64,000 nucleotides of DNA from Cellulophaga sp. F20128. GTDB taxonomy: Bacteria; Bacteroidota; Bacteroidia; Flavobacteriales; Flavobacteriaceae. The stretch covers positions 248,001 to 312,000 of the forward strand of contig NZ_JALKBA010000003.1 in assembly GCF_023015805.1 (NCBI RefSeq), in the 5' to 3' direction. The notes below the pieces were generated by a model. That model was not told the origin of the DNA. It saw only the letters and a list, made by a program, of their open reading frames with translations, and searched no databases. The position numbers and the translations under genes are program-made. Shown here piece by piece: positions 1 through 18,042 of the stretch; within the stretch, counting starts at the first letter, position 1, and each line of letters opens with the position of its first letter.

Positions 1-394
1 TACAAGACAAGGTAGTTTTGGACATTCCGAATTTAATCAGCTTTCTGTGCCTTGGCAGGGAGATGATGCTAAATTCAATAAAGTAGATTTGGACTATTGG
101 ACACCTAATAATCCTACTGCTAATAATCCAGCTTTGGAATATGGTGCAAATACAGATTATTATTATACAGATTTTGATTTTGTACGTATCGGAAACATTG
201 GTTTGGGATATAAACTTCCAAAAGATATTTTAGATACCTTGAAAATGTCTAGTTTACGTTTTTCATTAGATATTCAAAATCCATTTACTTTTACAGATTA
301 TGCTGGTTCAGATCCAGAAACAGGTCTTCAAAATAACTATAACGGAGGGTATTTGACTCAAACAGTGTTGTTTGGACTAAAATTGTCATACTAA
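1..394 (+). CDS. SusC/RagA-like TonB-dependent outer-membrane transporter, C-terminal end (5' truncated)
   Basis: Only the last 130 or so codons are in the window; the frame (from base 2) is open to the left edge, so the gene begins upstream. The segment ends in alternating beta-strand sequence typical of a SusC barrel: an FDFVRIGNIGLGYKLP strand, then FSLDIQNPFTFTDYAGSDPE and a terminal VLFGLKLSY strand with an aromatic C-terminus. SusC forms the TonB-dependent channel that imports oligosaccharides captured by SusD. The SusD gene starts 18 nt downstream, which is the usual pairing and supports the call. The plug, TonB box and carboxypeptidase-like domain cannot be seen here. Confidence 0.9.
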   Translation, partial: TRQGSFGHSEFNQLSVPWQGDDAKFNKVDLDYWTPNNPTANNPALEYGANTDYYYTDFDFVRIGNIGLGYKLPKDILDTLKMSSLRFSLDIQNPFTFTDYAGSDPETGLQNNYNGGYLTQTVLFGLKLSY

Positions 395-412
395 TTTTAA
401 AAATATATAAAT

Positions 413-2062
413 ATGGAATTATTAAAAAACATAAAATATATATCAGCTATACTAGCTTTTATGGTTTTATTAAATGCTTGTGATAACTTTATAGAAGAAG
501 ATATTTACTCAAGTGTTACAAGTGAAAATTTTATAACAGAAGATAATGCAGACCAATTGGTTGCAGGTATTTACCCCCACGTTCGCTCGGTTTATAAAAA
601 CTATGGTTATAAGTTTGAAGGGACTGATATCTTTACATCTAGAGGTGATGTTAATTCTATTAGTGCTGGTAATGATTATGTAGGTTTTGAGGCACCAACT
701 GGCAACGGGGTGTGGTCAGGTAATTATGATATTATTGCCAAAGCAAGTACAGCTCTTAATCGTTATGAAAATCAAATAAAATGGAGTGATGGAAGATTAG
801 CTGAAAAAGCCTATGGTATTGCACAAGCAAAAGCATTAAGAGCCTTGGCCTTTTTTAATTTAGCACAACAATACGGTGGTGTAGTTTTAGAATTAGATGA
901 GCCTCAAACTATTCGTGACGATTATAAAAGATCGTCAGAAGAAGAAACTTATGCCCTAATTATTTCAGAATTGGAAGCGGCTATTCCAGATTTAGAAAAT
1001 GACCCACAAACAGGAAGGTTTTCAAAAAGAGCAGCACAACATGTATTGGCAGAGGTTTATTTAACGAAAGCATATACTTCCTTTGGTACTCCCTCAGATT
1101 ATACAACTGCTGTAACTTTGGCTGAATTAGCGATAGGTAATTACGACCTTAGAAGTCAGACTTTTGCACAGGTATTTGATTATGACAATCAAGTAAATGA
1201 TGAAGTGCTTTTTGCAGCGCAATGGGGTACGGATGGTACATCAGCTGATAAAAACAACAATAAACATGCTATGTTTATGTATTCAGTAGCTAATTTACCA
1301 GGTATAAACAGAACAACAACCCCTTATGGTTTTGCTATTGGTAGCCCTATGCCTACACCATTCTTTTATTCACTTTTCGCAGACAATGACTCAAGAGAGG
1401 ATGTTACAATTCACCGTGCGCTCCTTGCAGATGCAGATGAACCTGGTGGGCCAGATAATATAGTCGCTGGAGATACAGTGGTATATTTTCCTAAAGTTGC
1501 TTTAGATGCGGTTGAATTAGCAGAACGTTTAGATCGTTATTGGGTATACCAACCCGATCAATATCTATGGGGAAGTCCTGCTGATATTCCAGGAGTAAAT
1601 TACTTATATTCTTTAAATACGGAACTTACGAATTTTCCAATTTTTAAAAAATTTGATGATGAAAATTTTAATGAATCCGCTGAAGGTGCTCGTGATACTT
1701 TTATATATAGAATCGCTGAAACTCATTTAATTGCGGCGGAGGCTCATTTAGGCGCAGGAAATACAGCAGGAGCATTAGCACATATTAATCGAGTTAGAGA
1801 ACGAGCAACTGGAGTAGCAAATGAATATACCAGCATAACCATTGATGATATTTTAAATGAACGCGCATTAGAGCTTGCAGGCGAAGATAATAGATGGGCC
1901 GTATTAAAGAGAACTGGTAAATTACAAGAACGGATAGAACTTTACAATCCACATATAATTAACCACGGAGCTTTTGATCCTACAAAGCATTTATTGCGAC
2001 CAATTCCAACGCAAGAGATATCACTTTCACCAGGGACTATGACTCAAAATCCTAAATACTAA
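413..2062 (+). CDS. SusD/RagB-like surface glycan-binding lipoprotein
   Basis: This 549-aa protein has an N-terminal lipoprotein signal (hydrophobic stretch ending LLNAC, lipid-anchor Cys about residue 23) and the usual SusD length. TPR-like helical segments with AQAKALRALAFFNLAQQYGGV around residues 137-157 and the C-terminal ILNERALELAGEDNRW followed by RPIPTQEI are SusD family hallmarks. It should sit on the outer surface and cap the SusC barrel encoded immediately upstream. The substrate cannot be read from SusD itself; the neighbouring enzymes suggest a mannose/glucuronate/inositol-containing glycan. A strong terminator-like hairpin follows at 2113-2146. Confidence 0.95.
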   Translation: MELLKNIKYISAILAFMVLLNACDNFIEEDIYSSVTSENFITEDNADQLVAGIYPHVRSVYKNYGYKFEGTDIFTSRGDVNSISAGNDYVGFEAPTGNGVWSGNYDIIAKASTALNRYENQIKWSDGRLAEKAYGIAQAKALRALAFFNLAQQYGGVVLELDEPQTIRDDYKRSSEEETYALIISELEAAIPDLENDPQTGRFSKRAAQHVLAEVYLTKAYTSFGTPSDYTTAVTLAELAIGNYDLRSQTFAQVFDYDNQVNDEVLFAAQWGTDGTSADKNNNKHAMFMYSVANLPGINRTTTPYGFAIGSPMPTPFFYSLFADNDSREDVTIHRALLADADEPGGPDNIVAGDTVVYFPKVALDAVELAERLDRYWVYQPDQYLWGSPADIPGVNYLYSLNTELTNFPIFKKFDDENFNESAEGARDTFIYRIAETHLIAAEAHLGAGNTAGALAHINRVRERATGVANEYTSITIDDILNERALELAGEDNRWAVLKRTGKLQERIELYNPHIINHGAFDPTKHLLRPIPTQEISLSPGTMTQNPKY

Positions 2063-2112
2063 GATCGTATTTATAAAAAATAAAGTGTATTAGAGTTAGT
2101 TTAAGTTGAATT

Positions 2113-2146
2113 ATAGGCAGGCGATAATTTGTCTGCCTATTTTTTT
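2113..2146 (+). terminator. Rho-independent terminator after susD
   Basis: An 8-bp perfect stem (ATAGGCAG / CTGCCTAT) closes a short loop and is followed directly by a run of seven T. It sits 50 nt after the SusD stop and before the first enzyme gene, so it may separate or attenuate susCD from the enzyme genes. Confidence 0.8.
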
Positions 2147-2194: not shown

Positions 2195-2208
2195 CACCCT
2201 ATTGTATG
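2195..2208 (+). promoter_or_regulatory. 14-mer shared with the GH92/esterase intergenic palindrome
   Basis: The 14-mer CACCCTATTGTATG occurs here, ending on the ATG of the GH115-like gene, and again at 6618-6631 inside a 43-nt inverted repeat. The identity is directly visible. A role as a binding site for the local hybrid regulator is only a guess. Confidence 0.35.
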
Positions 2209-4263
2209 ACCAATTTTTTTTGTAGAATTAAAGTAATTTTGTGTTCACTTTATGTACTGTTCTTTATGTTATTTTCGTGTTCAAAATCTCAGCCTGAAAA
2301 CTGTTACGTAATCGTTGGAGCAGCTGCAAATAATGTGGAATTAAATACTATTGATGATTTTAAAAAAGATCTTAAAAAAGTTATTGATAGCGAAGTAATA
2401 CTCTTATCAGAAACTGATGAATTGCCAGGTACAGGTACTATTTTTGTATTAGGAACAACTTTTTCAAACGGATTAATTAAGGAAATGGCAGCACAAAAAA
2501 AAATTGTATTGTCCAGTTCATTTCCAGGTTCAAGAGGTGGAATATGGGCCACAACAACACTTTCAAATGGACAAGATGCTATTGTAATTGGCGGGTCTGA
2601 TGTACAAGGTTTTCAATATGCTACCTACGATTATTCAAAAGAAGTATTAGGAGTTGATCCATTTGAATATTGGACAGGGAAATTACCCAGTAAAAAATTG
2701 GCAACTGATTTGTCTCACTTCACTTCAAAAACAATTAACCCTCCAAAGGTTCCCATACTCACTTATTTTGAAAATGATGTAGATGAACTGGCAAATTATA
2801 GAGGGAAGTTGCTAGAGTACGATTGGGAGAGTTATACCGAAATGGTTAATTCACTAGTGCGATTGCGCTATAATTCCATCCAATTGTTTGATATGCTGGG
2901 CAGACCAGAATTTTTTATTCGCCCAGAATACAAAAAACTAGCGCCAGACTACCAAATAGATATAGCCTATGTGGATAAGATGATCAACTATGCACATGCG
3001 AAGGGAATGCAAATTGCAATCGACTTTGCATTAGGGTATCAAATTCACCCTATGGCTGCCGATAAGGCAGATTGTTGGAAAACTTACAAGGAAGACTGGT
3101 TGCAGGCTTGGCGCTATTATTTAGAAAAAACGCCTTTAGCCAAAACCGATATTTTTATACTTAGACCATGGCATCAAGTTTGGGATTGGGAGTATAAAAG
3201 CAGTTGTGGCGAAAGTAAAATTGATGTTTTTAATGAGGTATATGCTGCTTTTGGCGATTTGGTAGACGAATACAAGCCAGATGCAACAAAAGTATTGGTT
3301 TGTTATTCTGATGGGATGCAAATGTGGAATGAAGGTTTTAGACCACCAAAAGACTGGACCGTATTGTGGTCCGATCACGGTTTTGGTGATTTTGAACACT
3401 TGCCAAATACCACAGATGGCTATAAGTTTGGAACCTACATGCATGCTGGGTATTGGTTAAACCATACTGTACATAATCCCTATCCCAAGAAAGTGGAATC
3501 TGTGATGAAAGATATGTTTCAGACGTATAATACAACTAATTATTGCTTGGTAAACGGACAAAATTTTAGACCATTTTTACTGAATATTGAGGCGTATAGT
3601 GAAGTGTGTAATAATCCAGAAACCTTTAACGGGGATACGTTTTATAAAGCATGGACGGAACGTTATTTTACTGAAGAAGTAGCAAATCACGCCCGTAATT
3701 CTATGAAATGGCTTCATGAAGCACAAGAAGGAAGAAAAGGCTATGTAGAACATTTGTGGGAAATTAGGGAGGCAGTTTCCTATTTATCCAATGCACCTAT
3801 ACGGAGACCGGGTAAAACGGATGTGCCTTATGACTATAAAAGGGTAGCAAATGACTTTATACATACAGCGCGTGCTAAAGACAATTTACAAAAGGCCTTA
3901 TCCGAAGCCAAAATAGGATACGACAAAGTGGAGCTAGATGGTAATTTTTATCACTCCTATATCCTATTGCCAACAATTTTATATGCAGATTTAATCGATT
4001 TTGAAACAACTTTGCATTCTATGGCAGTCTTAAAAAGGGAGTTTGAAGTTAGTAAAAATAAGGACGCTTTAGAAGAAGCAAAGTCGTTGGTAACAATTGC
4101 AAAACAAAAGCTTAAAACGATCTATCAAAATAGAACTTCAGGAGATTTGGATTCAAAATGGCAACATTGGTATTCCATAAAAATACGAAGACAAAACAAT
4201 GGATTTCCGACCTTAGAAATGATGGAAGAAATTGAAAGTAATTTAAATAAAATGACACTTTAA
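2206..4263 (+). CDS. Putative glycoside hydrolase, GH115 alpha-glucuronidase-like lipoprotein
   Basis: 685 aa with a lipoprotein signal (VLFFMLFSC, Cys about residue 25). The order of parts resembles GH115 and GH67-type proteins: an N-terminal alpha/beta domain ending IVIGGSDVQGFQYATYDYSKEV, then DPFEYW, a catalytic-barrel-like segment (LRYNSIQLFDMLGRPEFF, HAKGMQIAIDFALGYQIHP), a LWSDHGFGDFEHLP segment and a YMHAGYWLNHTVHNPYP segment, and a helical C-terminus. GH115 enzymes remove glucuronic acid from glycans. Similarity is judged by eye and is partial, so substrate and catalytic residues are not assigned. It is the first enzyme after susCD and lies 11 nt before the GH92 gene. Glucuronate linked to inositol is a plausible target given the neighbours. 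Confidence 0.55.
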   Translation: MTNFFCRIKVILCSLYVLFFMLFSCSKSQPENCYVIVGAAANNVELNTIDDFKKDLKKVIDSEVILLSETDELPGTGTIFVLGTTFSNGLIKEMAAQKKIVLSSSFPGSRGGIWATTTLSNGQDAIVIGGSDVQGFQYATYDYSKEVLGVDPFEYWTGKLPSKKLATDLSHFTSKTINPPKVPILTYFENDVDELANYRGKLLEYDWESYTEMVNSLVRLRYNSIQLFDMLGRPEFFIRPEYKKLAPDYQIDIAYVDKMINYAHAKGMQIAIDFALGYQIHPMAADKADCWKTYKEDWLQAWRYYLEKTPLAKTDIFILRPWHQVWDWEYKSSCGESKIDVFNEVYAAFGDLVDEYKPDATKVLVCYSDGMQMWNEGFRPPKDWTVLWSDHGFGDFEHLPNTTDGYKFGTYMHAGYWLNHTVHNPYPKKVESVMKDMFQTYNTTNYCLVNGQNFRPFLLNIEAYSEVCNNPETFNGDTFYKAWTERYFTEEVANHARNSMKWLHEAQEGRKGYVEHLWEIREAVSYLSNAPIRRPGKTDVPYDYKRVANDFIHTARAKDNLQKALSEAKIGYDKVELDGNFYHSYILLPTILYADLIDFETTLHSMAVLKREFEVSKNKDALEEAKSLVTIAKQKLKTIYQNRTSGDLDSKWQHWYSIKIRRQNNGFPTLEMMEEIESNLNKMTL

Positions 4264-4274
4264 TCAGATAAATA

Positions 4275-6602
4275 ATGAAGCTAAACCAAAAAATCAGAAA
4301 TAGCGTTGTGGGAATAGGTTTTATACTATGCGCTCTAATTTCCTGTAAAAATGAGGACAAAAGAGTAGCTGTTGTTGATAGCGATGAACCAACGGATTAT
4401 GTAGCCAAAGTATATCCTCAACTTGATTCTGAAAACTCCAGATGGTTTTTCTTTGCTTCTGCTAATCGTCCATTTGGAATGGTAAATTTAAGTCCAGACA
4501 CTCAAATTGGCGGAGCTTGGGGTAGTGGCTATCGCTATAAAACGGATACGATAAAAGGGTTTAGTCATATTCATGCATGGCAAATGTCTGGTGTTTCTGT
4601 AATGCCTGTAACGGTATCGGAGTCAAATAAAGCGACAGTTTTTACAGACTTTTATTCAAAATTTAGTCATGAAACAGAAAAAATTGCACCGGGTTACCAT
4701 TATTTAGAATTAGATAGGTATCAAATCACTTCAGAATTAACGAGTACCAAAAGGGTAGGGTTTCATCAATACACATTTCCTGAAAATGAAAAAGCAGCCA
4801 TTCTTTTTAATCTAAATACCTTATTGGGACCCTGTGAAAATTCAGCCGGGGTATTGCAACAAAACGGTCCAAAAGAAATTACGGGCTCATTGGTTATGGA
4901 GCCAACACGCCGAAGACCTAAACCACTAACTGTTTATTTTAAAGCACTTTTTAATACGCCTATTTCTTCCATTGAAAAGGATGAAACTACAGGCAATTAT
5001 CTTGTGAATCTAAAAGAAACCACATCAAAAGTTCTGATGAAAATAGGTATTTCATATACGTCGGTAGCGAATGCAGGGAACAATTTAAAAGAAGAACTAG
5101 GGCATTGGAATTTTGATACAATTGTCTCCCAATCAAAAACAGAATGGAATGATTTACTTCGTAGAATTGACGTCCAAGGTGGTACAGAAAAAAGTCAAAA
5201 AAGATTTTATACAGACTTGTGGCATGCCTTACAAGGACGTAGAATTATTAATGATATAAATGGTGCCTATCCAGACAATACAGCCAAGGAATTTAGAATA
5301 GGTCAATTGCCTTTAGATGATAATGGTATTCCAAAATTCAATCATTTTAATTCAGATTCTTTTTGGGGAGCTCAGTGGACAATTAACACTCTTTGGGGCC
5401 TTGCTTATCCTGAAATTATGGAAGATTTTACCCATTCCTTGCTTCAGTATTATAAGGACGGTGGCTTAATTCCTCGCGGACCTTCAGGTGGTAATTATAC
5501 CTACGTGATGACCGGAGCTTCATCTACCCCCTTTATTGTGAGTGCCATTCAAAAGGGTATTGTTAAGGATGATATAGAAGGTATTTATCAGGCCTTGAAA
5601 AAGAACCATATGCCAAATGGAATTATGGAAAAATCTGGGTATGAACACATCACTAATAAAGGAGGTGGATTGGCTCATTATATTAAAAATGGATATGTGC
5701 CTTATCCAATTCCAGAAGGGCAATTTGGAGGGCACCAAGATGGTGCTAGTTTAACGATGGAATATGCATACCAAGATTGGACCTTAGCACAATTAGCTAA
5801 AAAGTTGGGTCACACGGCAGATTATGATTATTTTATGGAGCGTTCTAAAAACTATGGGAATGTTTTTGATAAAAATACCGGCTGGATGCGGCCTAAAAAC
5901 TTAGAAGGCGAATGGTATCAAAAATTTGATCCATATGAAGTAAAGGTTGGTTTTATAGAGTCTAATAGCGCTCAATCTACATGGTTTGTACCGCATGATT
6001 TGGAAGGCTTGGCAACACTAATGGGAGGAACAGAAAAGGCCGTAGAGAAATTAAATCAGCAGTTTGTAAAAGCAGCAGAAATAAACTTTACATCGGGTAC
6101 CTCTCATTCCCTAGAAAATCACCCAGAGTATAGTAGGATTCCCGTTAATTTTGGAAATCAACCATCGATACAAACCTCTTTTGTATTTAATATGTTACAA
6201 AGACCAGACCTTACGCAATATTGGACCAGAAATGTTATTGATAAAACATTTAGTGGGTTGTCTCCTGCCACCGGTTATAATGGAGATGAAGATCAAGGTT
6301 TAATGGGAAGTTTAAATGTACTTCTCAAAATAGGGTTGTTTCAAATGAATGGAGGTACGGAGGATAATCCAGAATATCAAATTGGGAGTCCAATTTTTGA
6401 CAAAATTACCATTGCGCTACATCCAAAGTATTATTCAAAGAATACCTTTGTTATAAAAACCATTAACAATAGCCCCACAAACGTTTATGTCAATAAGGTT
6501 ACCTTCAATAATAAAACAATTGATGGTTATAAAATTACGCAGAAGGAAATTGCAAATGGAGGGGAATTAGTGCTAGAAATGAGTGAAAAACCAAAGGAAT
6601 AA
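4275..6602 (+). CDS. GH92 family alpha-mannosidase lipoprotein
   Basis: 775 aa, the usual GH92 length, with a lipobox at about residue 24 (CALISC). GH92 hallmarks in order: YVAKVYPQLDSENSRWFFFASANRPFG at the start of the N-terminal beta domain, GFSHIHAWQMSG, the (alpha/alpha)6 barrel segments FNSDSFWGAQWTINTLWGL and GGHQDGASLTMEYAYQDW, and the C-terminal GYNGDEDQGLMG followed by YQIGSPIFDKITI. Family members are Ca2+-dependent inverting exo-alpha-mannosidases acting mainly on 1,2-, 1,3-, 1,4- or 1,6-linked mannose. The exact linkage cannot be predicted here. It is co-directional with the GH115-like gene 11 nt upstream and is followed by a 43-nt inverted repeat. Confidence 0.93.
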   Translation: MKLNQKIRNSVVGIGFILCALISCKNEDKRVAVVDSDEPTDYVAKVYPQLDSENSRWFFFASANRPFGMVNLSPDTQIGGAWGSGYRYKTDTIKGFSHIHAWQMSGVSVMPVTVSESNKATVFTDFYSKFSHETEKIAPGYHYLELDRYQITSELTSTKRVGFHQYTFPENEKAAILFNLNTLLGPCENSAGVLQQNGPKEITGSLVMEPTRRRPKPLTVYFKALFNTPISSIEKDETTGNYLVNLKETTSKVLMKIGISYTSVANAGNNLKEELGHWNFDTIVSQSKTEWNDLLRRIDVQGGTEKSQKRFYTDLWHALQGRRIINDINGAYPDNTAKEFRIGQLPLDDNGIPKFNHFNSDSFWGAQWTINTLWGLAYPEIMEDFTHSLLQYYKDGGLIPRGPSGGNYTYVMTGASSTPFIVSAIQKGIVKDDIEGIYQALKKNHMPNGIMEKSGYEHITNKGGGLAHYIKNGYVPYPIPEGQFGGHQDGASLTMEYAYQDWTLAQLAKKLGHTADYDYFMERSKNYGNVFDKNTGWMRPKNLEGEWYQKFDPYEVKVGFIESNSAQSTWFVPHDLEGLATLMGGTEKAVEKLNQQFVKAAEINFTSGTSHSLENHPEYSRIPVNFGNQPSIQTSFVFNMLQRPDLTQYWTRNVIDKTFSGLSPATGYNGDEDQGLMGSLNVLLKIGLFQMNGGTEDNPEYQIGSPIFDKITIALHPKYYSKNTFVIKTINNSPTNVYVNKVTFNNKTIDGYKITQKEIANGGELVLEMSEKPKE

Positions 6603-6737: not shown

Positions 6738-8357
6738 ATGAAGATTATTGTAATAGCTATAGGTGTCTTTTTTTCCTGTTCGGTTACGGCTCAAACTAGA
6801 GATACACTTTTGTTGTGGAATGATAAAGTGCCAAATGAAACCCGGGAAAAACAGCGAGCAAGACAGACAGACGACACTAGCGGTGGCGTTATTCGATTAA
6901 CTGATGTCACCAATCCTATACTTACGGTTTTTAAACCTAAAATTCCAAATGGTTCTAAGGCCGGGATTATAATTTGTCCGGGTGGAGGATATAAAATATT
7001 GGCAATAGATAAAGGGGGTACTGAAGTTGCCGAATGGATAAACAGCTTGGGATATACAGCCTTTGTACTGCAATATCGTGTTCCAAATAAACAACAGGGT
7101 GCCCTACAAGATGCCCAGCGTGCTATTCGATTGGTGCGGGCCAATGCCACTTTATACGATGTAGACCCTCAGAAAATTGGTTTTATGGGTTTTTCAGCAG
7201 GCGGACATTTAGCGGCAAATGCGGCTACAAATTTTCAGAAGAATACCTATGTCCAAGTTGATGCAATAGACGATTTATCAAGTCGCCCAGATTTTACAAT
7301 GCTTATTTACCCAGCTTATCTAGATAAAGGGGAAAACAGGAGTTTAAGTCCAGAACTTAAATTAGAAGAAAATACATCACCATTTTTTATTTTCGGGACC
7401 GTTGATGACCCCTATGGAAATAGTTCTTTGGTGATGACTACGGCCTTGCGAGATACTAAAATACCTGTTACGTTACACATGTTGCCCCAAGGTGGACACG
7501 GTTATGGGTTGCGAAAAGGAAATATAGCGGCAGAAACATGGCCTCTATTAGCTGAAAATTGGTTGCATAAGATGGTACCGCCTAAGGAAGGAGTCAAATT
7601 TAAAAGGACCCATAATTTTCCAAAAATAGTTGAGTACCCAAAAAATATACCGCCTAAGAAGGATGTATGGGTATTTCTAATGGCAGGACAATCCAATATG
7701 GCTGGTCGCGGGTTAGTAGAACCGTTAGATACCATATCTTCAACTCGAATTTTAACCATTAATAAAAACAACGAAATTATACTAGCCAAAGAACCACTGC
7801 ATTTTTATGAGCCTACAATGGCAGGCTTAGACAGTGGTATGTCCTTTGCTAGAAATCTTATAAAAGAGGTTCCAGAAAACGTATCTGTTTTGTTAATTCC
7901 AACCGCTGTGGGGGGAAGTGCTATAGGCCAATGGATAGGAGATTCTCTCCATCGAAATGTAAAATTATTATCCAACTTTAAACAGAAGGTAGTATTGGCT
8001 AAAAAATATGGAACTGTAAAAGGAATTTTGTGGCATCAAGGCGAGAGTGATGCATCACCACAAGGGGTTGCCGCCTACGCCAAAAATATGAGCATTTTAG
8101 CGAAGGAGTTTAGAAGTGCTGTTGGCCAAAAAAACCTACCAATTGTGGCTGGGGAACTTGGGAATTATTCAAAAAAAGAAGCATTATGGATGGCTCTAAA
8201 TCGTGAGCTTCATAACTATACCAAAAAAGATAAAAACTTCGCTGTCATTAGTGCAGCGGACTTGGATGATAAAGGCGACAGGGTGCATTTTAATTCAGAA
8301 GGTCAAAGAATGTTGGGACTCAGGTATGCTGAGGCATATCTTAAAATTAAAAAATAG
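6738..8357 (+). CDS. Two-domain carbohydrate esterase: alpha/beta-hydrolase plus SGNH sialate-O-acetylesterase-like domain
   Basis: 539 aa with a cleavable signal peptide (ends SVTAQ, about residue 19). Residues about 25-280 form an alpha/beta-hydrolase of the BD-FAE/acetylxylan-esterase type: PGGGY oxyanion region at 81-85, nucleophile Ser153 in GFSAGG, an acid in FGTVDDP near 223 and His254 in GGHGYG. Residues about 305-539 form a separate SGNH/DUF303-like esterase: FLMAGQSNMAGRG with Ser319, a GG block (VGGSAIGQW), the LWHQGESDA motif, and a C-terminal D-x-V-H-F (DRVHFNSEGQ). Both sets of catalytic residues look intact, so it could remove two different acyl decorations, or acetyl groups at two positions. 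Secreted, probably periplasmic. Confidence 0.88.
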   Translation: MKIIVIAIGVFFSCSVTAQTRDTLLLWNDKVPNETREKQRARQTDDTSGGVIRLTDVTNPILTVFKPKIPNGSKAGIIICPGGGYKILAIDKGGTEVAEWINSLGYTAFVLQYRVPNKQQGALQDAQRAIRLVRANATLYDVDPQKIGFMGFSAGGHLAANAATNFQKNTYVQVDAIDDLSSRPDFTMLIYPAYLDKGENRSLSPELKLEENTSPFFIFGTVDDPYGNSSLVMTTALRDTKIPVTLHMLPQGGHGYGLRKGNIAAETWPLLAENWLHKMVPPKEGVKFKRTHNFPKIVEYPKNIPPKKDVWVFLMAGQSNMAGRGLVEPLDTISSTRILTINKNNEIILAKEPLHFYEPTMAGLDSGMSFARNLIKEVPENVSVLLIPTAVGGSAIGQWIGDSLHRNVKLLSNFKQKVVLAKKYGTVKGILWHQGESDASPQGVAAYAKNMSILAKEFRSAVGQKNLPIVAGELGNYSKKEALWMALNRELHNYTKKDKNFAVISAADLDDKGDRVHFNSEGQRMLGLRYAEAYLKIKK

Positions 8358-9423: not shown

Positions 9424-11239
9424 ATTGTTAATTAAGGGGCTATATGTACTGTTAGTTGTGGTTTGTTTTTCCTGTACAGAAAAACAGTTTAAAAAAGGGC
9501 AAAACATACAAGTTGCTTTTTTAGCCGATGTTCATTTGCAGGATATTTATGGTGCATTTCAGGATACCGATTATAAGGGTGTTAAAAATACGAAGACCGG
9601 TAAATTTACTTTGGCGCGTACTATGAAGTCACAATTAGAATCAACTCGCTTGTTCAATGAGAATTATTATGCTTTCTTATCGGCCTTAGATGATGTGGCT
9701 GCCAGAGGTGTAAAATATGTGGTATTACCCGGAGATTTTAGCGATGATGGGCAGCTTATTAATATCAGAGGCCTACAGCGTATTCTTGCAGCTTATGCCA
9801 AGGAACACAGTATCAATTTTTTGTTGACAACAGGCAATCACGATCCGGTAAAACCATTTTTTCAAGATGCAGGTAAAAGTGATTTTTTGGGTGAAGGAGG
9901 TAAGGCACAACCAATTTTTAGTAGCTCAGATCTCTATAGTGTTCAAGATACCTTAGCCTTACCCTTAGTTATTACAAAAGATATTGCAAAACTAGGGTAT
10001 GATGAAATTTTAAAAGAATTACATGCCTTTGGCTTTTTTCCCAAGAAATCTGATGTTTATTGGGAAACTCCCTTTACGAACTATACGTATGATGAGTATT
10101 CATTTAGTACAGCAGCCAGCCAAGCAGTAGTAGACAATAGGGTATACCGTCTGCCAGATACCGCTTATAAGATACCAGATGTAAGCTATTTGGTGGAGCC
10201 AAGTGAAGATTTATGGTTTTTAGCTATAGATGCTAATGTTTATATACCAAAAGGGAACAGTGAAGAAGATGGCTTTACTCCCTCAAACTATGGCAGTGCA
10301 AGTGTAGGGTATAACCATGTTCTAACACATAAAAAACATTTAATTTCTTGGGTCAATACAGTGACAAAACGTGCAGAACAATTAGGGAAAACATTAATTA
10401 CTTTTAGTCATTACCCTATGGTAGATTTTAATGATGATGCTTCAAACGAATTAAAGTTATTGTTTGGAGAAGATAAAATGCAGTTGCATCGGGTGCCAAA
10501 TGATCAAGTAGCTGAGGCCTTTGCGGATGCTGGACTAAAAATTCATTTTGGGGGTCATATGCATAGTAATGATACAGGGGTCAGGACTACAAAGCTTGGA
10601 AACAAATTAGTAAATATTCAAATACCATCCTTGGCAGCTTATATTCCAGCTTATAAACTACTTACTATCCATTCTCCTACAGCCTTTGAAATAGAAACTA
10701 TAGTTATCGATTCCGTGCAAGGGTTTACTGATTTGTTTCCTTTGTATGAAGAAGAGTATCGGCATTTAAAAGAAACGAAAGATAGTAGTAGCCTTTGGAA
10801 TGCGAATGTTTTAACGGCTAAAACGTATAAAGAATTTACCCAATGGCATTTAAAAGAATTGGTGAGACTGCGATTTTTACCAAGAGATTGGCCAGCTGAG
10901 TTTAAGAATGATTTGGTCCATTTAACGGGGGAAGACCTCATGAGACTTGCTGCCAATGATAAAACCATAAACTATCCTGAATATAAAGAATGGACAGGGG
11001 CCGATATGATTTTTGATTTTTATCAATTGCGAAGTGCAGATGAAATGGCGGTACCTGATATTGGGCTAAAGCGGTTAGAGCAGTATAAGATTGTTTGTGA
11101 TAGGCTAAAGACATCTGACAATGTGCAATTTGCATTGTGGGGAAAAATTTTCAACAAAACAGCAGCTGGACAACCATCAAATCATTTTAAAATAAATTTA
11201 AATACGAATGCAATGCAACGAATTTCGCCTCAAGAATGA
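9404..11239 (+). CDS. Calcineurin-like metallophosphoesterase lipoprotein
   Basis: 611 aa, lipobox at about residue 24 (VVCFSC). The metallophosphoesterase blocks are complete: FLADVHLQD (Asp42, His44), VVLPGDFSDDG (Asp111), TTGNHDP (Asn145, His146), FSHYPM and HFGGHMHSND, which together supply the two-metal centre. A C-terminal extension of about 170 residues (after the last motif) is not recognised. The gene overlaps the PI-PLC-like gene by 20 nt, which suggests coupled translation and a shared substrate. A natural role is removing phosphate from inositol phosphate released by the PLC, although many phosphomonoesters or diesters are possible. Located in the periplasm or on the outer membrane. 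Confidence 0.85.
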   Translation: MRKSKTKLLIKGLYVLLVVVCFSCTEKQFKKGQNIQVAFLADVHLQDIYGAFQDTDYKGVKNTKTGKFTLARTMKSQLESTRLFNENYYAFLSALDDVAARGVKYVVLPGDFSDDGQLINIRGLQRILAAYAKEHSINFLLTTGNHDPVKPFFQDAGKSDFLGEGGKAQPIFSSSDLYSVQDTLALPLVITKDIAKLGYDEILKELHAFGFFPKKSDVYWETPFTNYTYDEYSFSTAASQAVVDNRVYRLPDTAYKIPDVSYLVEPSEDLWFLAIDANVYIPKGNSEEDGFTPSNYGSASVGYNHVLTHKKHLISWVNTVTKRAEQLGKTLITFSHYPMVDFNDDASNELKLLFGEDKMQLHRVPNDQVAEAFADAGLKIHFGGHMHSNDTGVRTTKLGNKLVNIQIPSLAAYIPAYKLLTIHSPTAFEIETIVIDSVQGFTDLFPLYEEEYRHLKETKDSSSLWNANVLTAKTYKEFTQWHLKELVRLRFLPRDWPAEFKNDLVHLTGEDLMRLAANDKTINYPEYKEWTGADMIFDFYQLRSADEMAVPDIGLKRLEQYKIVCDRLKTSDNVQFALWGKIFNKTAAGQPSNHFKINLNTNAMQRISPQE

Positions 11240-11294: not shown

Positions 11295-14200
11295 ATGAAA
11301 CTAAAAGTATTCATAGTCATAAGTTTTGTTTTTTTATTTTGGAAGGTAAATGGGCAAAACATAAAGTTTGAACACTATAATGATAACGATGGATTATCGC
11401 ACAATTCCGTACGCCATATTGTTCAAGATAAACATGGGTTTTTATGGTTGGGAACTTTTCACGGCCTCAATAGGTTTGATGGGTATGAATTTAAGTCGTA
11501 TTTAAGTAAAACTTCAACAGAAAACACTCTGTACAATGATGATATTACGGCACTAGAACTCGATGAAGAGTCTAATAATTTGTGGATAGGAACAAGAAAA
11601 GGTTTATCTCTTTTTAAAACCGACACCCATAAATTCACAACCTTTTTACCGGAAGCAGATGGGGCTAATGGCTTGGAAGACGAAGAGATTAGGTCGGTTC
11701 ATATTGATAAATACAAACGTGTTTGGGTAGGGACAAAGACCAAAGGGCTTTATGTTTTTTATGTTGCAGAGAATAGGTTTAAAAAGGTTGAAATTGAAGG
11801 TTTTAATTATATTAAGGAGATTTTTGAAGATAAAAATGGGACCATTTGGGTGGGAAGTTATATCAGCGGTTCTGTGGCCCGAATCAAGGTTAGCCAAAAT
11901 GGAGATATTGACCAAATAATTACTTATTCCTTAGATATTCCTAACTCAACAGATAAGAACCCTTACGTTAACTTTATATACGAAGATCGTAAGTCCGATA
12001 TTTTTGTTGGGTCAAGAGAGGGCTTGTATAAATTAGATAAGTTAACAAATACCTTCGTTAATTTATATATAGAAGATGATGAGGTTCGAGATGATTTAGG
12101 GCCTTATTTTCTGTCGGTAGCCCAAGCACCAGATGGTAAATATTGGGTGGGAACTCTTGGGGGACTTTTAGAATGTAACCAACTAGAAGACATTGCTAAA
12201 GGGGAATTTAAGAATCATTATGCCGTGTTGTCAGAAGACACATCACTTGTTGATAATTTGGTTTCTTCACTCTATTTTGATGCCTCTGGAGTGCTTTGGA
12301 TTGGTACAGAAGATGGCTTAGATAAGTACGATCCATTTGAAAATCAGTTTAATTTTAATAAGGATATTTCTTCATATATAGGTAACAAAGCTCCAAGGAT
12401 ACGTGGGTTTTCTAAAACATATGATAAAAAAATAATTGTAGCCACCAGACACAACGGATTGTTCATTACTAAGGATACAAGATTTATTCCACTTTATAAT
12501 AACGAAAAAGATATCGCTAGTATTTATTCAATCGATGGTAGTATATTTTATTGCGGTTTGTGGAATGGAGAAGTCTTGGTGTATAATTATAAAACAAACA
12601 CTTCTAAAGTAATCTATGTTGGCTTTAACCAATCTCCGGTAACGGCCTTTGAGCAGTTAGAAGATGGTAGGCTCGTATTAGGTTCTTTTGGCGAAGGCGC
12701 AGTAATCTTAGACAGCAAAACACAAAAAATACAAACTGATTTTGGCGTTTTATTACCTGATTATGAGATAAATGAAATTAGGAATGACAAAAATGGTTCT
12801 TTGTGGTTTGCGACAGAAACAGGTGTTGTAAAATACAAGATGGCCCCCAAAGAAAAACGGTCTTATATGGCTTCTTCTTATCCTGAAGAAGGGCTATTGC
12901 ATGACAATGTAAGTGATATAATTTTTGATAAAAACGGAAAACTCTGGGCTTCTACTCGTAAGGGAATTAGCTTTTTTGATGCCGAAACTAATGCGTTTGT
13001 AGCTTTAAAAGAACCAGAAGAACTGGTCGGTAAATGGGTAACCGATATGCTAACAGATGCCAATGGAGATCTGTGGTTTAACATTAATAATAATAGCGTT
13101 GCAAAACTTAATTTAAGCACGCAAGGTTTTAATCTTTATCATGTGAATAGTGGAAATAGGTTAGACTTTTTTAGTTCTGGTGGTTTTTATAATTTTGAAA
13201 ACTCCAACATTTATTTGGGTGGAAAAAATGGAGTTATTTACTTTTCTCCTTATACCATACAAGAAAATCAATTGGCACCAAATCCAGTAATTACGGGCTT
13301 TAAAATTCAAAATAAAGAGGTATTTCCTGGGATGGAAATTAATGGTCAAATTCCATTAGAAAAAGACTTTAACGATACCAAAAGTATAGCACTTAATTAT
13401 AAAAATAGAAACTTTTCAATTCAGTTTACAGCTCCGTCTTATGCCAATGAAAAACTGAACAAGTTTGAATATATGTTGGAAGGTTTTGATGAGGATTGGA
13501 TTGCTGCCAATAGTAATTCTAGAGCCATACAGTACACTAATTTATTTCCCGGAGCCTATGTTTTTAAAATAAAAGCGAGTAATAGTGATGGGCAATGGAG
13601 TAAGGTAGTACCCTATAAAATAAAGATTAACCCCCCATTTTGGTTAACTTATCCAGCGCTTTTACTATTCTTATTGATTGTATTTTTAGCCTTCTATTTT
13701 ATAAGAAAGGAAGTTAAAAATAGGATGCGATTAAAGCAAGAATTGGTTACTGAAAAAGTAAACAGAGAGCGAGATATTAAACTAAATAACGAAAAACTTC
13801 GTTTTTTTACGAATATTTCACATGAACTTAGAACTCCCTTAACCCTTATTTTAGGCCCCGTAAAACAATTGATAGAAGAGGGGAAAGAGAAAAGTAGTGC
13901 ATATCAAAAAAGCAGATTTAATCTCATACATCAAAATGCAAGTAGGCTCTTAAATCTAGTAAATCAAGTACTCGATTTTAGAAAGGCACAAACAGGAGAA
14001 CTTAAGCTTAAAGTGTCAAAAACAGATATTCTGTTATATACAAAAAACATTTTTGATACCATTAAAGAATTTGCCTATAACAAACAAATTGAATTAATTT
14101 TTAATACGGAAGAGAAGACTCTTTTTGGATGGATAGACAGGGATAAATACGATAAAATTTTATACAATTTATTGTCTAATGCTATAAAATTCACCAATAA

Positions 14201-15317
14201 ATACGGACATGTAGAACTGTATGTAAACTTAGGAGAACAGCACTTAATTGTGGAAGTGACCGATGATGGTATTGGTATTCCATTAAACAGTCAAGAAAAA
14301 ATATTTACTAGATTTTACCAGGCAACCAATAGTAAAGCAAACAATACAGGTTCTGGTATTGGGTTATCGTTGGTAAAATCTTTGGTAGAACTTCATAAAG
14401 GTGTTATAAAAGTTAAAAGTATTCCAGGTAAAGGAAGTGTGTTTACGCTTGAAATTCCCATAGATCGTAATTCCTACAGTAAGGAAGAGGTTTTTGAATA
14501 TGTTACCAAGGAAAACGAACCAGAAACTGTGGTGTATGCACCCGTGAAAAAAGCGGTTAGTACGACTACTATCAAAGAAAAAATCCTTGTTGTTGAAGAC
14601 AATATGGAACTTCGGAATTATTTAAAGGACTATTTGTCTGACTACTACAAAGTGTATGAGGCTGAAAATGGCGAAGAAGGACTTCAAATTTGTCGTCAAG
14701 TAAAACCCATCCTATGTGTGGCAGATGTAATGATGCCGGTTATGGACGGACTCCAATTTTGTGAAGAATTAAAAAACGATGAATTTATTAGTCATATTCC
14801 CGTTGTTCTATTAACGGCACTTTCCGAAAATGAAGATAAGGTGAAAGGGTATAATATGGGTGCTGATGGGTACTTAGTAAAACCTTTTGATCCTGCTTTA
14901 TTAAAAACCGTTATACAAAATGTTATAAAAACCAGGTTGGAATTAAAAGCAAAATTTTCGGGCGAAGTAGAAAGTGAAATAAGTTTACTTACACACTCAC
15001 CTATAGATAAAGCTTTAATGGAAAAAATAACAAACCTTATCGATGAAAATTTAAATGATACGGAGTTAACTACGACTTACCTGTGCAGCGAACTAGGTAT
15101 GAGTTCATCAAAGTTATACAGAAAAGTAAAAGAATTAACAGATTTAGCACCCAACGAATTTCTCAGGACAGTTCGACTAAAGAAATCGGCTCACTTCTTA
15201 AAAACTAAAAAATACAACGTGTCTGAAGTAGCTAACTTGGTGGGCTTTAATGATCCTTTGTATTTTAGTAGGTGTTTTAAAAAGCAATTTGGTTTTCCAC
15301 CGAGCAAATTGTTATAA
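11295..15317 (+). CDS. Hybrid two-component system regulator (SusCD-locus type)
   Basis: 1340 aa. Order: signal peptide, two seven-bladed propellers made of Reg_prop repeats (many WLGTFHGLNRFD, LWIGTRKGLSLF, VWVGT-type units) over about residues 25-690, a Y_Y_Y domain ending IKINPPFW near 780, one membrane helix about 785-805, HisKA with FFTNISHELRTPLTL, HATPase with NLLSNAIKF, DDGIGIP and GSGIGLSL, a receiver domain (VVEDN, ADVMMPVMDG, LLTALSE, VKPFD) and a C-terminal AraC-type HTH. Such proteins sense a periplasmic oligosaccharide or released sugar and activate the local locus from one polypeptide. Its place inside the enzyme cluster makes it the likely regulator of this locus. All phosphorelay residues appear present. 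Confidence 0.96.
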   Translation: MKLKVFIVISFVFLFWKVNGQNIKFEHYNDNDGLSHNSVRHIVQDKHGFLWLGTFHGLNRFDGYEFKSYLSKTSTENTLYNDDITALELDEESNNLWIGTRKGLSLFKTDTHKFTTFLPEADGANGLEDEEIRSVHIDKYKRVWVGTKTKGLYVFYVAENRFKKVEIEGFNYIKEIFEDKNGTIWVGSYISGSVARIKVSQNGDIDQIITYSLDIPNSTDKNPYVNFIYEDRKSDIFVGSREGLYKLDKLTNTFVNLYIEDDEVRDDLGPYFLSVAQAPDGKYWVGTLGGLLECNQLEDIAKGEFKNHYAVLSEDTSLVDNLVSSLYFDASGVLWIGTEDGLDKYDPFENQFNFNKDISSYIGNKAPRIRGFSKTYDKKIIVATRHNGLFITKDTRFIPLYNNEKDIASIYSIDGSIFYCGLWNGEVLVYNYKTNTSKVIYVGFNQSPVTAFEQLEDGRLVLGSFGEGAVILDSKTQKIQTDFGVLLPDYEINEIRNDKNGSLWFATETGVVKYKMAPKEKRSYMASSYPEEGLLHDNVSDIIFDKNGKLWASTRKGISFFDAETNAFVALKEPEELVGKWVTDMLTDANGDLWFNINNNSVAKLNLSTQGFNLYHVNSGNRLDFFSSGGFYNFENSNIYLGGKNGVIYFSPYTIQENQLAPNPVITGFKIQNKEVFPGMEINGQIPLEKDFNDTKSIALNYKNRNFSIQFTAPSYANEKLNKFEYMLEGFDEDWIAANSNSRAIQYTNLFPGAYVFKIKASNSDGQWSKVVPYKIKINPPFWLTYPALLLFLLIVFLAFYFIRKEVKNRMRLKQELVTEKVNRERDIKLNNEKLRFFTNISHELRTPLTLILGPVKQLIEEGKEKSSAYQKSRFNLIHQNASRLLNLVNQVLDFRKAQTGELKLKVSKTDILLYTKNIFDTIKEFAYNKQIELIFNTEEKTLFGWIDRDKYDKILYNLLSNAIKFTNKYGHVELYVNLGEQHLIVEVTDDGIGIPLNSQEKIFTRFYQATNSKANNTGSGIGLSLVKSLVELHKGVIKVKSIPGKGSVFTLEIPIDRNSYSKEEVFEYVTKENEPETVVYAPVKKAVSTTTIKEKILVVEDNMELRNYLKDYLSDYYKVYEAENGEEGLQICRQVKPILCVADVMMPVMDGLQFCEELKNDEFISHIPVVLLTALSENEDKVKGYNMGADGYLVKPFDPALLKTVIQNVIKTRLELKAKFSGEVESEISLLTHSPIDKALMEKITNLIDENLNDTELTTTYLCSELGMSSSKLYRKVKELTDLAPNEFLRTVRLKKSAHFLKTKKYNVSEVANLVGFNDPLYFSRCFKKQFGFPPSKLL

Positions 15318-15491: not shown

Positions 15492-16370
15492 ATGAGAAAA
15501 GATGCACTTAAGAATGAACAAAACCCTATGGGTAATATAGACGATTGGGAAGAAAACTTGTTAGACAGATATCCAGATCCTTCTGAGCAGGTAAAGGAAA
15601 AGGAGGAGTTTAGAAATTATATAGATTCCGAACGTTTAGATACCGTTAAAGAGTTCTATAGAATAAATCACCAGTATCAAACCTATGATTTTGTTTGTGA
15701 AAAGGAAGCCGAGTTCTTAAAATTTGATCGCAAGGAAATGTCTATTTGGGAAGCTGTCGATTTTTTAAATACTTTGGTGGATGATAGTGATCCTGATATT
15801 GACTTAGACCAATTACAACACTTGTTACAAACGTCGGAGGCAATTAGAGGAGATGGGCACCCAGATTGGTTTGTACTCACTGGATTTATTCATGATTTAG
15901 GTAAAATTTTATGCTTGTTTGACGAACCACAATGGGCCGTTGTTGGTGATACGTTTCCTGTTGGTTGTGCCTATTCAGATAAGATAGTATATGCTGAATT
16001 CTTTAAAGAAAATCCAGATTACACCAATAAACGCTTCAATACAAAGTATGGTGTTTACAAGCCCAATTGCGGTTTAGATAAGGTAAAGATGAGTTGGGGA
16101 CATGATGAATATTTATACCAAATAATGAAAGATTATTTGCCAGAGCCAGCATTGTATATGATTCGTTATCATTCCTTTTATGCACAACATAAAGAAAATG
16201 AGTACAGGCATTTGATGAATGAAAAGGATGTTGAAATGTTTGAATGGGTAAAGAAATTTAATCCATACGATTTATATTCAAAAGCACCAGAACCGCCAAA
16301 TGTTGAAGAATTATTGCCCTATTATAAGGAGCTTGTGGCAAAATATTTACCTGAAAAGCTAAAATTTTAA
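15492..16370 (+). CDS. Myo-inositol oxygenase (eukaryotic-type)
   Basis: 292 aa, full length for the family. All six residues expected to bind the mixed-valent di-iron centre are visible: His110 ([12 protein letters not shown]), His134-Asp135 (TGFIHDLGK), His204 ([11 protein letters not shown]), His227 (YMIRYHSFY) and Asp260 (NPYDLYSK). Substrate-loop motifs resemble animal and plant enzymes closely. It oxidises myo-inositol with O2 to D-glucuronate in the cytoplasm. No signal peptide is present. It follows the hybrid regulator by 174 nt and precedes the symporter by 94 nt. In this locus it would feed inositol from the PLC/phosphatase steps into glucuronate catabolism, the same acid a GH115 enzyme would release. 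Most bacteria use the Iol pathway instead, so this gene is notable. Confidence 0.95.
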
Positions 16371-16464
16371 ACAACCTATAATTCATATAGTTTAATTGAA
16401 TGGGTGTAAGACATTAATTCAATTGCCTTTTTGTGCTTTTCATTAACCAAACCAAACCACCTTT

Positions 16465-18042
16465 ATGTACACCTTTCTTACCTTTTTTGCGTTTACAGCC
16501 TTTGTTGCGCTTTATTCTTGGTACAAACTCCGAAGCGAAAAACTCGACTCAAAAGATGGTTATTTTCTTGGCGGAAGAAGTCTTACCGGGGTTGTTATTG
16601 CGGGTTCCATGTTGCTCACCAATATTTCTACCGAACACCTAATAGGTATGAACGGGTCATCTTATAAAAACGGATTTATTATTATAGCATGGGAAGTAAC
16701 ATCGGCCTTAGCCCTAGTGGCAGCGGCAATTTATTTTGTGCCCAAATATTTAAAAATGGGACTTACCACCATCCCAGAGTATCTAGAGAAGCGATTTGAT
16801 AGTACCACGCGAACTTTAGTGGCCCTATTTTTAATGATTTCGTTTATCGTTACCTTATTGCCAATTGTTCTCTATACTGGAGCCATAAATATTGAAAGCA
16901 TTTTTAATATTTCAGAAGTTTTAGAAGTTTCAAAGGGACAGGGACTTTGGATTACGGTGGTTGCCATTGGAGTTTTAGGTTCTATTTATGCCATCTTTGG
17001 CGGATTAAAAGCAGTGGCGGTATCTGACACCATAAATGGGTATGGATTATTAATAGGCGGGTTAGCCATACCCCTAATTGCCTTGGTTAGTATTGGCGAA
17101 GGCAACCCAGTAGATGGATTGGTAAAGGTGTATAATCACAGTCCAGAAAAATTTAATGTGATAGGGGCAAAGGATTCTGTATTGCCTTTTGGGGTTTTGT
17201 TTACAGGCTTAATCATCAATCAGTTGTATTTTTGGAGTATGAATCAAACCATAATTCAACGTGCCTTAGGTGCAAAAAATTTGGTGGAAGCACAAAAAGG
17301 TTTATTGTTTACAGGGGTTTTGAAAATATTGGTTCCCATAATCATCATCTTGCCAGGGGTTATTGGTTTTTATTACTTTGGAGATTCCTTGTATGATGAT
17401 CAAGATATGATTTATCCAGAACTCATTAAAAAAGTGCTACCCGTTGGTTTGGTTGGGGTTTTTGCTGCCATTGTAATGGGGGCGGTATTAAGTACCTTTA
17501 ATAGCGTTTTAAATAGTGCGGCAACTATTTTTAGTATCGATGTTTATAAAAGACATATCAGAAAAAATAGCAGTGATAAAAATTTGGTGAGAGTAGGGAA
17601 GCTCACTTCTGCCATCTTAGCTATTTTTGCTATTCTTGTAGCGCCTATGGTGGCCAATGCCCCTGATGGTTTGTATCAACTTCTCCAACAATTAAATGGT
17701 ATCTTTTTTATTCCCATCGCTTCTATTATGTTGGCAGGATTCTTTCTTAAGAAAATATCGGCTATGGGAGCCAAAGTAGCCTTGTTTGTAGGGCTTGCAT
17801 TTTATATTCTAACCACTTTTGTTTTTAAAGTCGATATTCATTTTGTACATATTTGGGGTATAGAATTTTTACTGAATTTGGCCGTGATGTTTGGCGTTTC
17901 CTATATGTACCCTGCAAACAGTGAAGACAACCAAGAAGATATGCATGTGGTCGATTTAAAGGAATGGAAATATACCAAGCCAATGGCTATCTTTTTATGT
18001 ATTGTTACCATTGTTATCTACATTTTATTGGGTAGCAACTAA
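16465..18042 (+). CDS. SSS-family Na+/solute symporter (SGLT-like)
   Basis: 525 aa, strongly hydrophobic, about 13-14 membrane segments. Characteristic SSS features: YFLGGRSLTG near the N-terminus, LLTNISTEHLIGMNGSSYKNGF, IYAIFGGLKAVAVSDTING, NQLYFWSMNQTIIQRALGAKN and a helix with GAVLSTFNSVLNSAATIFSIDVYKR, the Na+-site region. Closest in type to the bacterial galactose and eukaryotic glucose/inositol carriers. Substrate cannot be set from sequence alone; next to myo-inositol oxygenase the best guess is inositol or glucuronate uptake across the inner membrane. The ATG at 16465 gives MYTFLTFFAF, a proper first helix. It closes the locus. Confidence 0.9.
   Translation: MYTFLTFFAFTAFVALYSWYKLRSEKLDSKDGYFLGGRSLTGVVIAGSMLLTNISTEHLIGMNGSSYKNGFIIIAWEVTSALALVAAAIYFVPKYLKMGLTTIPEYLEKRFDSTTRTLVALFLMISFIVTLLPIVLYTGAINIESIFNISEVLEVSKGQGLWITVVAIGVLGSIYAIFGGLKAVAVSDTINGYGLLIGGLAIPLIALVSIGEGNPVDGLVKVYNHSPEKFNVIGAKDSVLPFGVLFTGLIINQLYFWSMNQTIIQRALGAKNLVEAQKGLLFTGVLKILVPIIIILPGVIGFYYFGDSLYDDQDMIYPELIKKVLPVGLVGVFAAIVMGAVLSTFNSVLNSAATIFSIDVYKRHIRKNSSDKNLVRVGKLTSAILAIFAILVAPMVANAPDGLYQLLQQLNGIFFIPIASIMLAGFFLKKISAMGAKVALFVGLAFYILTTFVFKVDIHFVHIWGIEFLLNLAVMFGVSYMYPANSEDNQEDMHVVDLKEWKYTKPMAIFLCIVTIVIYILLGSN

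Follow-up and report, generated by a model that had tools for sequence, protein, structure and literature searches.

Bacteroidota loci of the SusCD type combine a SusC/SusD pair, secreted glycosidases, a hybrid two-component regulator (HTCS) and genes of sugar catabolism, and the GH92-rich polysaccharide-utilisation loci (PULs) for yeast mannan and N-glycans are examples of this architecture. Here, we describe a locus of Cellulophaga sp. F20128 that has all of these parts and to which a phosphatidylinositol (PI)-specific phospholipase C (PLC), a metallophosphoesterase (MPE), a myo-inositol oxygenase (MIOX) and a sodium/solute symporter (SSS) are added; the target that we infer is the head group of a phospho-glycolipid and not a polysaccharide. 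The locus occupies the start of a stretch of 64,000 nucleotides, called the window, which corresponds to G000:C48:248001-312000 in a genome of 4.17 Mb in 114 contigs.

Single steps of such a pathway have described counterparts. The GIPC-phospholipase C of Botrytis and the plant enzyme NPC4 release inositol-phosphate glycans such as Man-GlcA-Ino-P from glycosyl inositol phosphorylceramide (GIPC), which is also the first step that we propose here; the annotation of the Botrytis enzyme is sphingomyelinase, whereas the window enzyme belongs to PF16670 and has genes of glycan and inositol catabolism adjoining it (accessible text of PMC11496612 for the eukaryotic enzymes). The alpha-glucuronidases BoAgu115A and BtGH115A, active on xylan or arabinogalactan, have full-length GH115 counterparts in relatives of the window locus, while the window itself encodes a short, divergent member that we call GH115L.

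We propose, with a probability of roughly 0.6, that the locus would serve the utilisation of GIPC-type head groups, i.e. of a hexose- or hexosamine-alpha-glucuronate (GlcA)-inositol-phosphate-lipid. Within this proposal, a phosphate-linked inositol aglycone, which we regard as a highly probable target feature, is better supported than GlcA as the first sugar on the inositol, which we regard as fairly probable. Searches of the open-access literature in PubMed Central, with subscription journals and preprints outside their scope, found among the papers listed no description of such a PUL, as the sequence-only reading had supposed, and no bacterial route for GIPC use. The architecture is that of known PULs; within the literature searched, the substrate class that we infer and the module for it are new.

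Head-group chemistry and the enzymes of the locus

GIPC heads contain GlcA-alpha(1-2)-inositol, to which cabbage adds Man-alpha(1-4) and other sources a Hex, HexN or HexNAc, and the Man-alpha(1-4)-GlcA bond was left uncut by several alpha-mannosidases (accessible text of PMC12498067). Heads with as many as 19 sugars are described, Ara, Gal, Man and Fuc among them, with GlcN/GlcNAc replacing Man in some (excerpts of PMC12201980), and HexNAc types have been considered in rice and in the roots and nodules of Medicago (excerpts of PMC9113257). Botrytis infection frees Man-GlcA-Ino-P and acetylated series A heads from plants (accessible text of PMC11496612); on the acetylated heads the esterase of the locus would have a job.

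The enzymes expected of a GIPC locus are all represented in the window, namely an alpha-mannosidase, an alpha-glucuronidase type (as GH115L only), a PLC, a phosphatase and inositol catabolism. We suggest that a surface PLC would cut the phospho-inositol glycan from the lipid and that SusCD would take it up, upon which the esterase would strip acetyl groups, the GH92 alpha-mannosidase trim mannose, a GH115-type enzyme separate GlcA from inositol and the MPE take off the phosphate. The symporter may bring in inositol and/or GlcA, MIOX would turn inositol into GlcA, and both core units could then enter the UxaC-UxuB-UxuA route, of which one UxaC and one intact UxuA, encoded beside uxaC, were found in the genome. 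Substrates, linkages, step order, enzyme locations and the cargo of the symporter are what we infer in this scheme. A second UxuA copy, apparently broken, lies beside the intact uxaC-uxuA pair (G000:C37:444485-445372).

Profile matches confirmed the order, strand and families given by the sequence-only reading for the susC end, susD, GH115-like protein, GH92, two-domain esterase, PI-PLC, MPE, hybrid regulator, MIOX and SSS symporter (Table 1). Adjacent susC and susD homologues are linked to carbohydrate-active enzymes and an HTCS, as in other SusCD-type PULs; intergenic gaps range from -20 to 174 bp, and the next open reading frame of at least 100 aa lies on the opposite strand. Beyond the window, SusC is complete with 1023 aa and starts at G000:C48:245323, 2.7 kb upstream.

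Table 1. Genes of the locus, in window coordinates, with the profile matches on which their assignment rests
Feature	Position	Strand	Match
SusC, C-terminal end	2..394	+	TIGR04056 9e-21
SusD-like outer-membrane glycan-binding protein	413..2062	+	PF07980 1e-30, PF14322 2e-19
GH115L, short divergent GH115-family protein, candidate alpha-uronidase	2206..4263	+	PF15979 7e-19
GH92 'core' alpha-mannosidase	4275..6602	+	PF07971 1e-133
Two-domain esterase, BD-FAE + SASA/acetylesterase	6738..8357	+	BD-FAE 8e-15, SASA 1e-54
PI-PLC-like protein, Ca2+-dependent	8362..9423 (listed open reading frame from 8203)	+	PF16670 (PI-PLC-C1) 4e-123
MPE, calcineurin-like metallophosphoesterase	9404..11239	+	PF00149 1.5e-9
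HTCS, hybrid two-component regulator	11295..15317	+	Reg_prop, Y_Y_Y, HisKA, HATPase, receiver, AraC-type HTH
MIOX, myo-inositol oxygenase	15492..16370	+	PF05153 7e-112
Sodium/solute symporter of the SSS family, candidate importer of inositol and/or uronate	16465..18042	+	PF00474 1e-54; NF007790 719 bits

The PLC is the single PF16670 protein found in the genome, and its gene probably starts at 8362 rather than at 8203, judging from a signal-peptide-like start 4 bp past the esterase stop. Profile, fold match and conserved motifs all agree with the family assignment: the structural model (mean pLDDT 80.6) matched the Ca2+-dependent PI-PLCs 5fyr (Pseudomonas) and 3h4w (Streptomyces antibioticus) and then PLC-delta, and H35, N36, E80, D82 and H126 were unchanged across 30 sequences. 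We take the His-Asn and Glu-x-Asp motifs to be the counterparts of the PLC-delta active-site residues. For the S. antibioticus enzyme a 1,6-cyclic phosphate route has reportedly been proposed, which would leave O-2 free for GlcA; our searches of the open-access literature found no paper on this, and we did not use it as evidence.

Both the N-terminal and the catalytic domain were matched in the GH92 protein, whose closest PDB sequence match is 6f8z and whose own motif reads GDEDQGLM. The 36 sequences that we compared of what we term the GH92 core share GDEDQG, where one GH92b paralogue reads MDDDAG and one GH92c paralogue GNDDSG, and from this comparison the core proteins seem to form a distinct group within GH92.

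In GH115L, PF15979 covers residues 186-508 above the curated cut-off and GH115_C was not matched; its alignment with full-length GH115 of relatives reached an hhalign probability of 98.9. The nearest folds to its model were GH115, then GH138 and GH67, and as mean pLDDT is 70.6 and low through much of the barrel, no active-site geometry was drawn from it. Compared with BoAgu115A, hhalign placed D191, Y411 and H413 on Asp206, Tyr420 and His422, and D369 at the position of Glu375, with the BoAgu115A numbering set on the relatives' sequence by motif spacing and inspection instead of a tool. Tyr420 and His422 of BoAgu115A contact O1 and the uronate carboxylate, and GH115 acts as an alpha-1,2-glucuronidase on xylan (accessible text of PMC3879575); GH115 enzymes may also act on GlcA-inositol. 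GH115L itself is likely an alpha-uronidase with an altered active site.

The only MIOX found in the genome aligned to mouse MIOX (2huo, 4e-87, residues 28-290 of 292) with the iron-ligand motifs kept, these residues being presumably the iron ligands of the mouse enzyme. Inspection revealed no signal peptide in MIOX, which is thus predicted to be cytosolic, and lipoprotein-like signals in GH115L, GH92, PLC and MPE. By sequence, the solved structures nearest to the symporter are vSGLT (6e-64) and SGLT1.

Directly downstream of the locus, on the minus strand (18913-24827), follow an RND-pump-like gene (by inspection) and an outer-membrane efflux protein (PF02321), both ordinary-looking. Upstream of the window (L003:1830-15879) lie genes for glycerate kinase, UPF0261, a PEP-hydrolase-like protein, a cupin, two DUF7133/ThuA/cupredoxin proteins, Gfo/Idh and a sugar-isomerase-like TIM barrel, accompanied by AraC-like regulators (by inspection). 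This looks like a separate sugar-acid-like cluster, and we did not count it into the locus.

Recurrence of the gene set around the phospholipase

Is this gene set a recurrent unit? In a sample of 199 genomes of the same family, PF16670 was found in 17 (full length in 14) and full-length MIOX, at 313 bits or above, in 29, including a copy with two internal stops in G006; MIOX matches below 30 bits were not counted, and with an alignment as query no more than five candidates were scored in each genome. Reading 33-42 kb around each of the 14 full-length PLC genes, we found SusC/D, GH92, PLC, MPE, HTCS, MIOX and SSS together in the Cellulophaga genome itself (G000) and in G002, G044, G152 and G061, with GH92 proteins in the latter four that are 65-72% identical to that of the window. 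In 8 of the 14 genomes the PLC lies beside a SusC of 27-31% identity, with MPE in six and no MIOX in the DNA read. The stretch of G006 with the interrupted MIOX (G006:C3:60000-99999; L056/L057) also holds a PLC, remains of an SSS gene and nearby GH92 genes, and appears to be a copy of the module in decay.

We then took a census of the best 80 GTDB loci by PLC profile similarity. Window-type loci, assigned by gene order and in part incomplete, make up 48 of them (L078-L124, L129), and as many loci end at 10 kb or at contig ends, the counts that follow are lower bounds; 19 loci were extended before the count and 4 after it (L083, L085, L091, L105). MPE and HTCS were present in 47 loci each, full GH115 in 38, GH115L in 21 and either of the two in 43, the GH92 core (at least 60% identity) in 35, GH125 in 10, MIOX in 40 and SSS in 27, with SSS adjoining MIOX in 27 of the 27 fetched stretches that show both. 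The order PLC-GH115-MPE-HTCS is kept in 33 of the 48 loci, and relatives of the esterase occur in five, as well as in G121 and G173 of the family sample. A whole-genome search detected MIOX in 45 of the 46 searchable window-type genomes (L100 and L102 lay outside it), against a background of 29/199 in the family sample; the single miss is L098, a metagenome-assembled genome of Prolixibacteraceae. In 42 of the 45, MIOX lies 7-23 kb from the PLC, a shared contig being inferred from coordinates for genes beyond the fetched locus, and in L093, L095 and L108 it is not or not evidently linked. The co-occurrence of GH92, a PF16670-type PLC and MIOX near susCD, which the sequence-only reading had named among its checks, was thus found.

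Carrier genera include Flavivirga, Maribacter, Flavobacterium, Mariniflexile, Aureibaculum, Cellulophaga, Algibacter, Seonamhaeicola and Hyunsoonleella, and carriers were also found outside these genera, in Prolixibacteraceae and Ancylomarina. Because it recurs across many genera, the gene set goes beyond chance. The locus is uncommon: a PLC above 600 bits with the window-type profile was found in just two of 395 sampled genomes of the phylum, the Cellulophaga genome and G437.

The other 32 of the best 80 loci (L125-L128, L130-L157; many from Algoriphagus) form a second PLC class, in which the PLC mostly lies beside an unrelated SusC, with MPE in 21/32 and with no window-type GH92, GH115 or MIOX in the DNA read. 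In the one locus of this class that was tested (L128), an alkaline phosphatase-GDPD protein adjoins the PLC, and the class looks like SusCD-based scavenging of phospholipid or phosphate without sugars. Could the window locus, too, strip phosphatidylinositol merely for its phosphorus? We consider this very improbable, as the HTCS, glycosidases, MIOX and SSS of the window type speak of carbon catabolism; phosphate scavenging suits the second class better.

An optional lipid-and-inositol module on a GH92 backbone

To avoid the circularity of a PLC anchor, we searched the same 199 genomes with a GH92-core profile, setting the core at 1260 bits or above and leaving out weaker matches such as G006 (1129 bits), G004 (1064) and G020 (1007); of these, G006 has the MIOX with stops, and G004 and G020 were not among the MIOX matches. 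The core was found in 21 genomes, and 40 kb were read around the 16 loci new to this set. GH115L, which occurs in 4 of the 199 genomes, always adjoins a GH92 core. In the 21 loci, PLC was linked in five, MPE in nine and MIOX in nine. MIOX linkage tracks MPE linkage (8 with both, 1 with MIOX only, 1 with MPE only, 11 with neither; Fisher p 4e-4), and full-length MIOX anywhere in the genome was seen in 17/21 GH92-core genomes against 12/178 others (p 1e-13), p values that are rough and lose some of their weight because the genomes are related and the tests ignore phylogeny and genome size. In 8 of these 17 genomes MIOX is unlinked to GH92.

Several further observations weigh against the GIPC reading. 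First, PLC and a linked MIOX are both missing from 12 of the 21 GH92-core loci, 11 of which lack MPE as well. They comprise SusCD-GH115L-GH92-HTCS in G001 and G011, SusCD-GH92-HTCS in G184, the same with GH28 and U598 in G075, loci with GH29 and the esterase in G121 and G173, loci with GH89, an acetyltransferase and full GH115 in G117 and G100, and loci with few other members of the set in G129, G080, G172 and G189, the last with MPE and the acetyltransferase; a GH115-type enzyme is kept in four (G001, G011, G117 and G100). The lipid-and-inositol module is therefore optional, and what the SusCD-GH92-HTCS backbone serves may be a wider Man-containing glycan. Second, MIOX also goes with GH67, another alpha-glucuronidase family and our control for a lifestyle of plant or alga degradation (12/23 GH67 genomes against 17/176 others), so that lifestyle explains part of the MIOX association. 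The effect of the GH92 core is seen within both strata (GH67 present, 9/9 against 3/14; GH67 absent, 8/12 against 9/164), while GH67 without the GH92 core gives 3/14 against 9/164 (p 0.056). Third, in the GH115-type step, equivalents of Arg328 and Asp332 of BoAgu115A were not aligned in GH115L, full-length GH115 is absent from the window, and the genome has no GH115 match besides GH115L; were GH115L not an alpha-uronidase, the organism would be without a known enzyme for the GlcA-inositol bond. In L083, L091 and L105, the DNA read, which took in upstream stretches, contained no GH115. Moreover, GH115L stands alongside full GH115 in 16 of the 48 PLC-anchored loci and may have a different job; we dropped its role as a mere GH115 substitute as the sole explanation. 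Last, many carrier genera are marine, and among the open-access papers listed by our search we saw none that proves GlcA-type GIPC for macroalgae.

MIOX runs opposite to susC in 18 of the 40 PLC-anchored loci that allowed its direction to be read. It is often a separate unit, and its place in the operon as a general rule was dropped. Of the findings that, by the sequence-only reading, would speak against its complete route from a mannosylated or glucuronylated inositol-phosphate lipid to glucuronate, two appeared in part: this orientation bears on separate transcription of MIOX and symporter, and 11 of the 21 GH92-core loci have glycosidases without PLC, MPE and linked MIOX. What stands of the putative route is the recurrent unit of PLC, MPE, GH92, GH115-type enzyme, HTCS, MIOX and SSS together with UxaC and UxuA in the genome; the route as a complete whole is not fully supported.

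These data also allow for a SusCD-GH92-HTCS backbone that handles a Man- and uronate-containing algal polysaccharide or an N-glycan, with PLC, MPE and MIOX as a separately acquired phospholipid and inositol module sitting alongside. The loci without PLC and linked MIOX (e.g. G001, G011, G184, G121 and G173), the recurrent GH29, GH3 and GH28 and the opposite orientation of MIOX agree with such an arrangement, which we hold to be unlikely: most GH92-core genomes keep MIOX somewhere even when unlinked, PLC and MPE sit inside the glycosidase run in the order given above, and some loci have genes of amino-sugar and uronate catabolism built into them. Under the GIPC reading, loci without PLC could use head groups that hosts or fungi have set free, or could draw on the PLC of another locus. 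G127, G153, G117, G100 and G172 have no PLC at the GH92-core locus and a full-length PLC elsewhere, beside another SusC.

Variant loci and the match to host head groups

Seven Flavobacterium loci (L093, L095, L099, L102, L104, L113, L115) encode a GH89 alpha-N-acetylglucosaminidase (PF05089 1e-148 in L093, to which the other six are 88-90% identical) together with a membrane protein akin to human heparan-alpha-glucosaminide N-acetyltransferase (L093: 8jkv, 5e-19), which also resembles NagX below the NagX cut-off. The four of them that were extended all have a 642-aa gene beside SSS-MIOX, and three also have a gene of 270-282 aa; in L164, the one locus tested, the former exceeds the NCBIfam cut-offs for NagB and the latter the cut-off for D-mannonate oxidoreductase. 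Genes of 395 aa and 235-290 aa lie between MIOX and susC in L080, L081, L082 (Maribacter) and L106 (Algibacter), and in L158 (L080) the pair is UxuA and D-mannonate oxidoreductase, above cut-offs; UxuA is also found beside or near MIOX in G115 and G164. What was computed directly is the gene set, how far it is conserved, how it is linked to MIOX and, in part of the relatives, to UxuA, mannonate oxidoreductase and NagB, and that UxaC and UxuA are encoded in the Cellulophaga genome. Other loci contain GH29 fucosidases, arabinofuranosidase-type enzymes, GH43, GH3, GH28, GH125 and extra GH92 genes. The variant enzymes (GH89 with the acetyltransferase, NagB, fucosidases and arabinosidases/GH43) match the published chemistry of GIPC heads well. 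Two proteins with no Pfam match also recur, U598 (598 aa; L083:7175-8971) in 7/48 and U188 (188 aa; L085:9154-9720) in 3/48 loci.

The 48 PLC-anchored loci divide into 35 with the GH92 core and no GH89, 7 with GH89 and no GH92 core and 6 with neither. Mutual exclusion of the two did not hold up with GH92 as the anchor, as both are present in G115, G117 and G100, and diverged GH89 (35-38%) lies near L083, L091, L085, G127 and G164. All seven close-GH89 loci belong to Flavobacterium, the four with SusC read have a different SusC (30-31%), and the seven may represent one event.

Besides GIPC, the sequence-only reading had offered GPI anchors and PI-mannosides as substrates, and the evidence favours GIPC over these two. 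A GPI anchor is built as Man-alpha1,4-GlcN-alpha1,6-inositol-phosphate-lipid, from which GH92 and GH125 would trim mannoses, GH89 and the acetyltransferase remove GlcN, and PLC and MIOX handle the inositol; PLC, MPE, MIOX and GH92 are compatible with this, GH125 occurs in 10 of the 48 loci, and G115, G117 and G100 combine GH92 core, GH89 and acetyltransferase. To our knowledge, however, GPI contains no GlcA, and yet 43 of the 48 loci have a GH115-type enzyme. No GH89 or other hexosaminidase family that could cleave alpha-GlcN-inositol was found among the nine proteins of window positions 413-18042, fucosidases and arabinosidases have no evident role, and the seven close-GH89 loci are without GH92 core in the DNA read, in four of them over the entire stretch from PLC past susC to MIOX, a separation that we use only weakly against GPI. 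Taken together, GPI anchors are an improbable target. PI-mannosides, which hold no uronate that we know of, are likewise less likely than GIPC.

We put at even odds the wider proposal that Bacteroidota possess a locus family dedicated to plant and algal GIPC sphingolipids, with gene content matched to the host head group: the GH92 core for the Man type, GH89 with the heparan-type N-acetyltransferase and NagB for the GlcN/GlcNAc type, and both in some loci. Such a family would include a PF16670 GIPC-phospholipase C, a mannosidase for Man-alpha(1-4)-GlcA and a new, short GH115-type alpha-glucuronidase for GlcA-inositol, and would use inositol and GlcA both via glucuronate. GIPCs have been termed the major sphingolipids on Earth (PMC7570276). 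If true, the proposal would explain how the head groups of plant and algal membrane lipids return to the carbon and phosphorus cycles, would provide enzymes for the structural analysis of GIPCs, including a mannosidase for the linkage left uncut by the enzymes tested, and would offer a testable genetic link between the head-group type of the host and the gene content of the bacterium.

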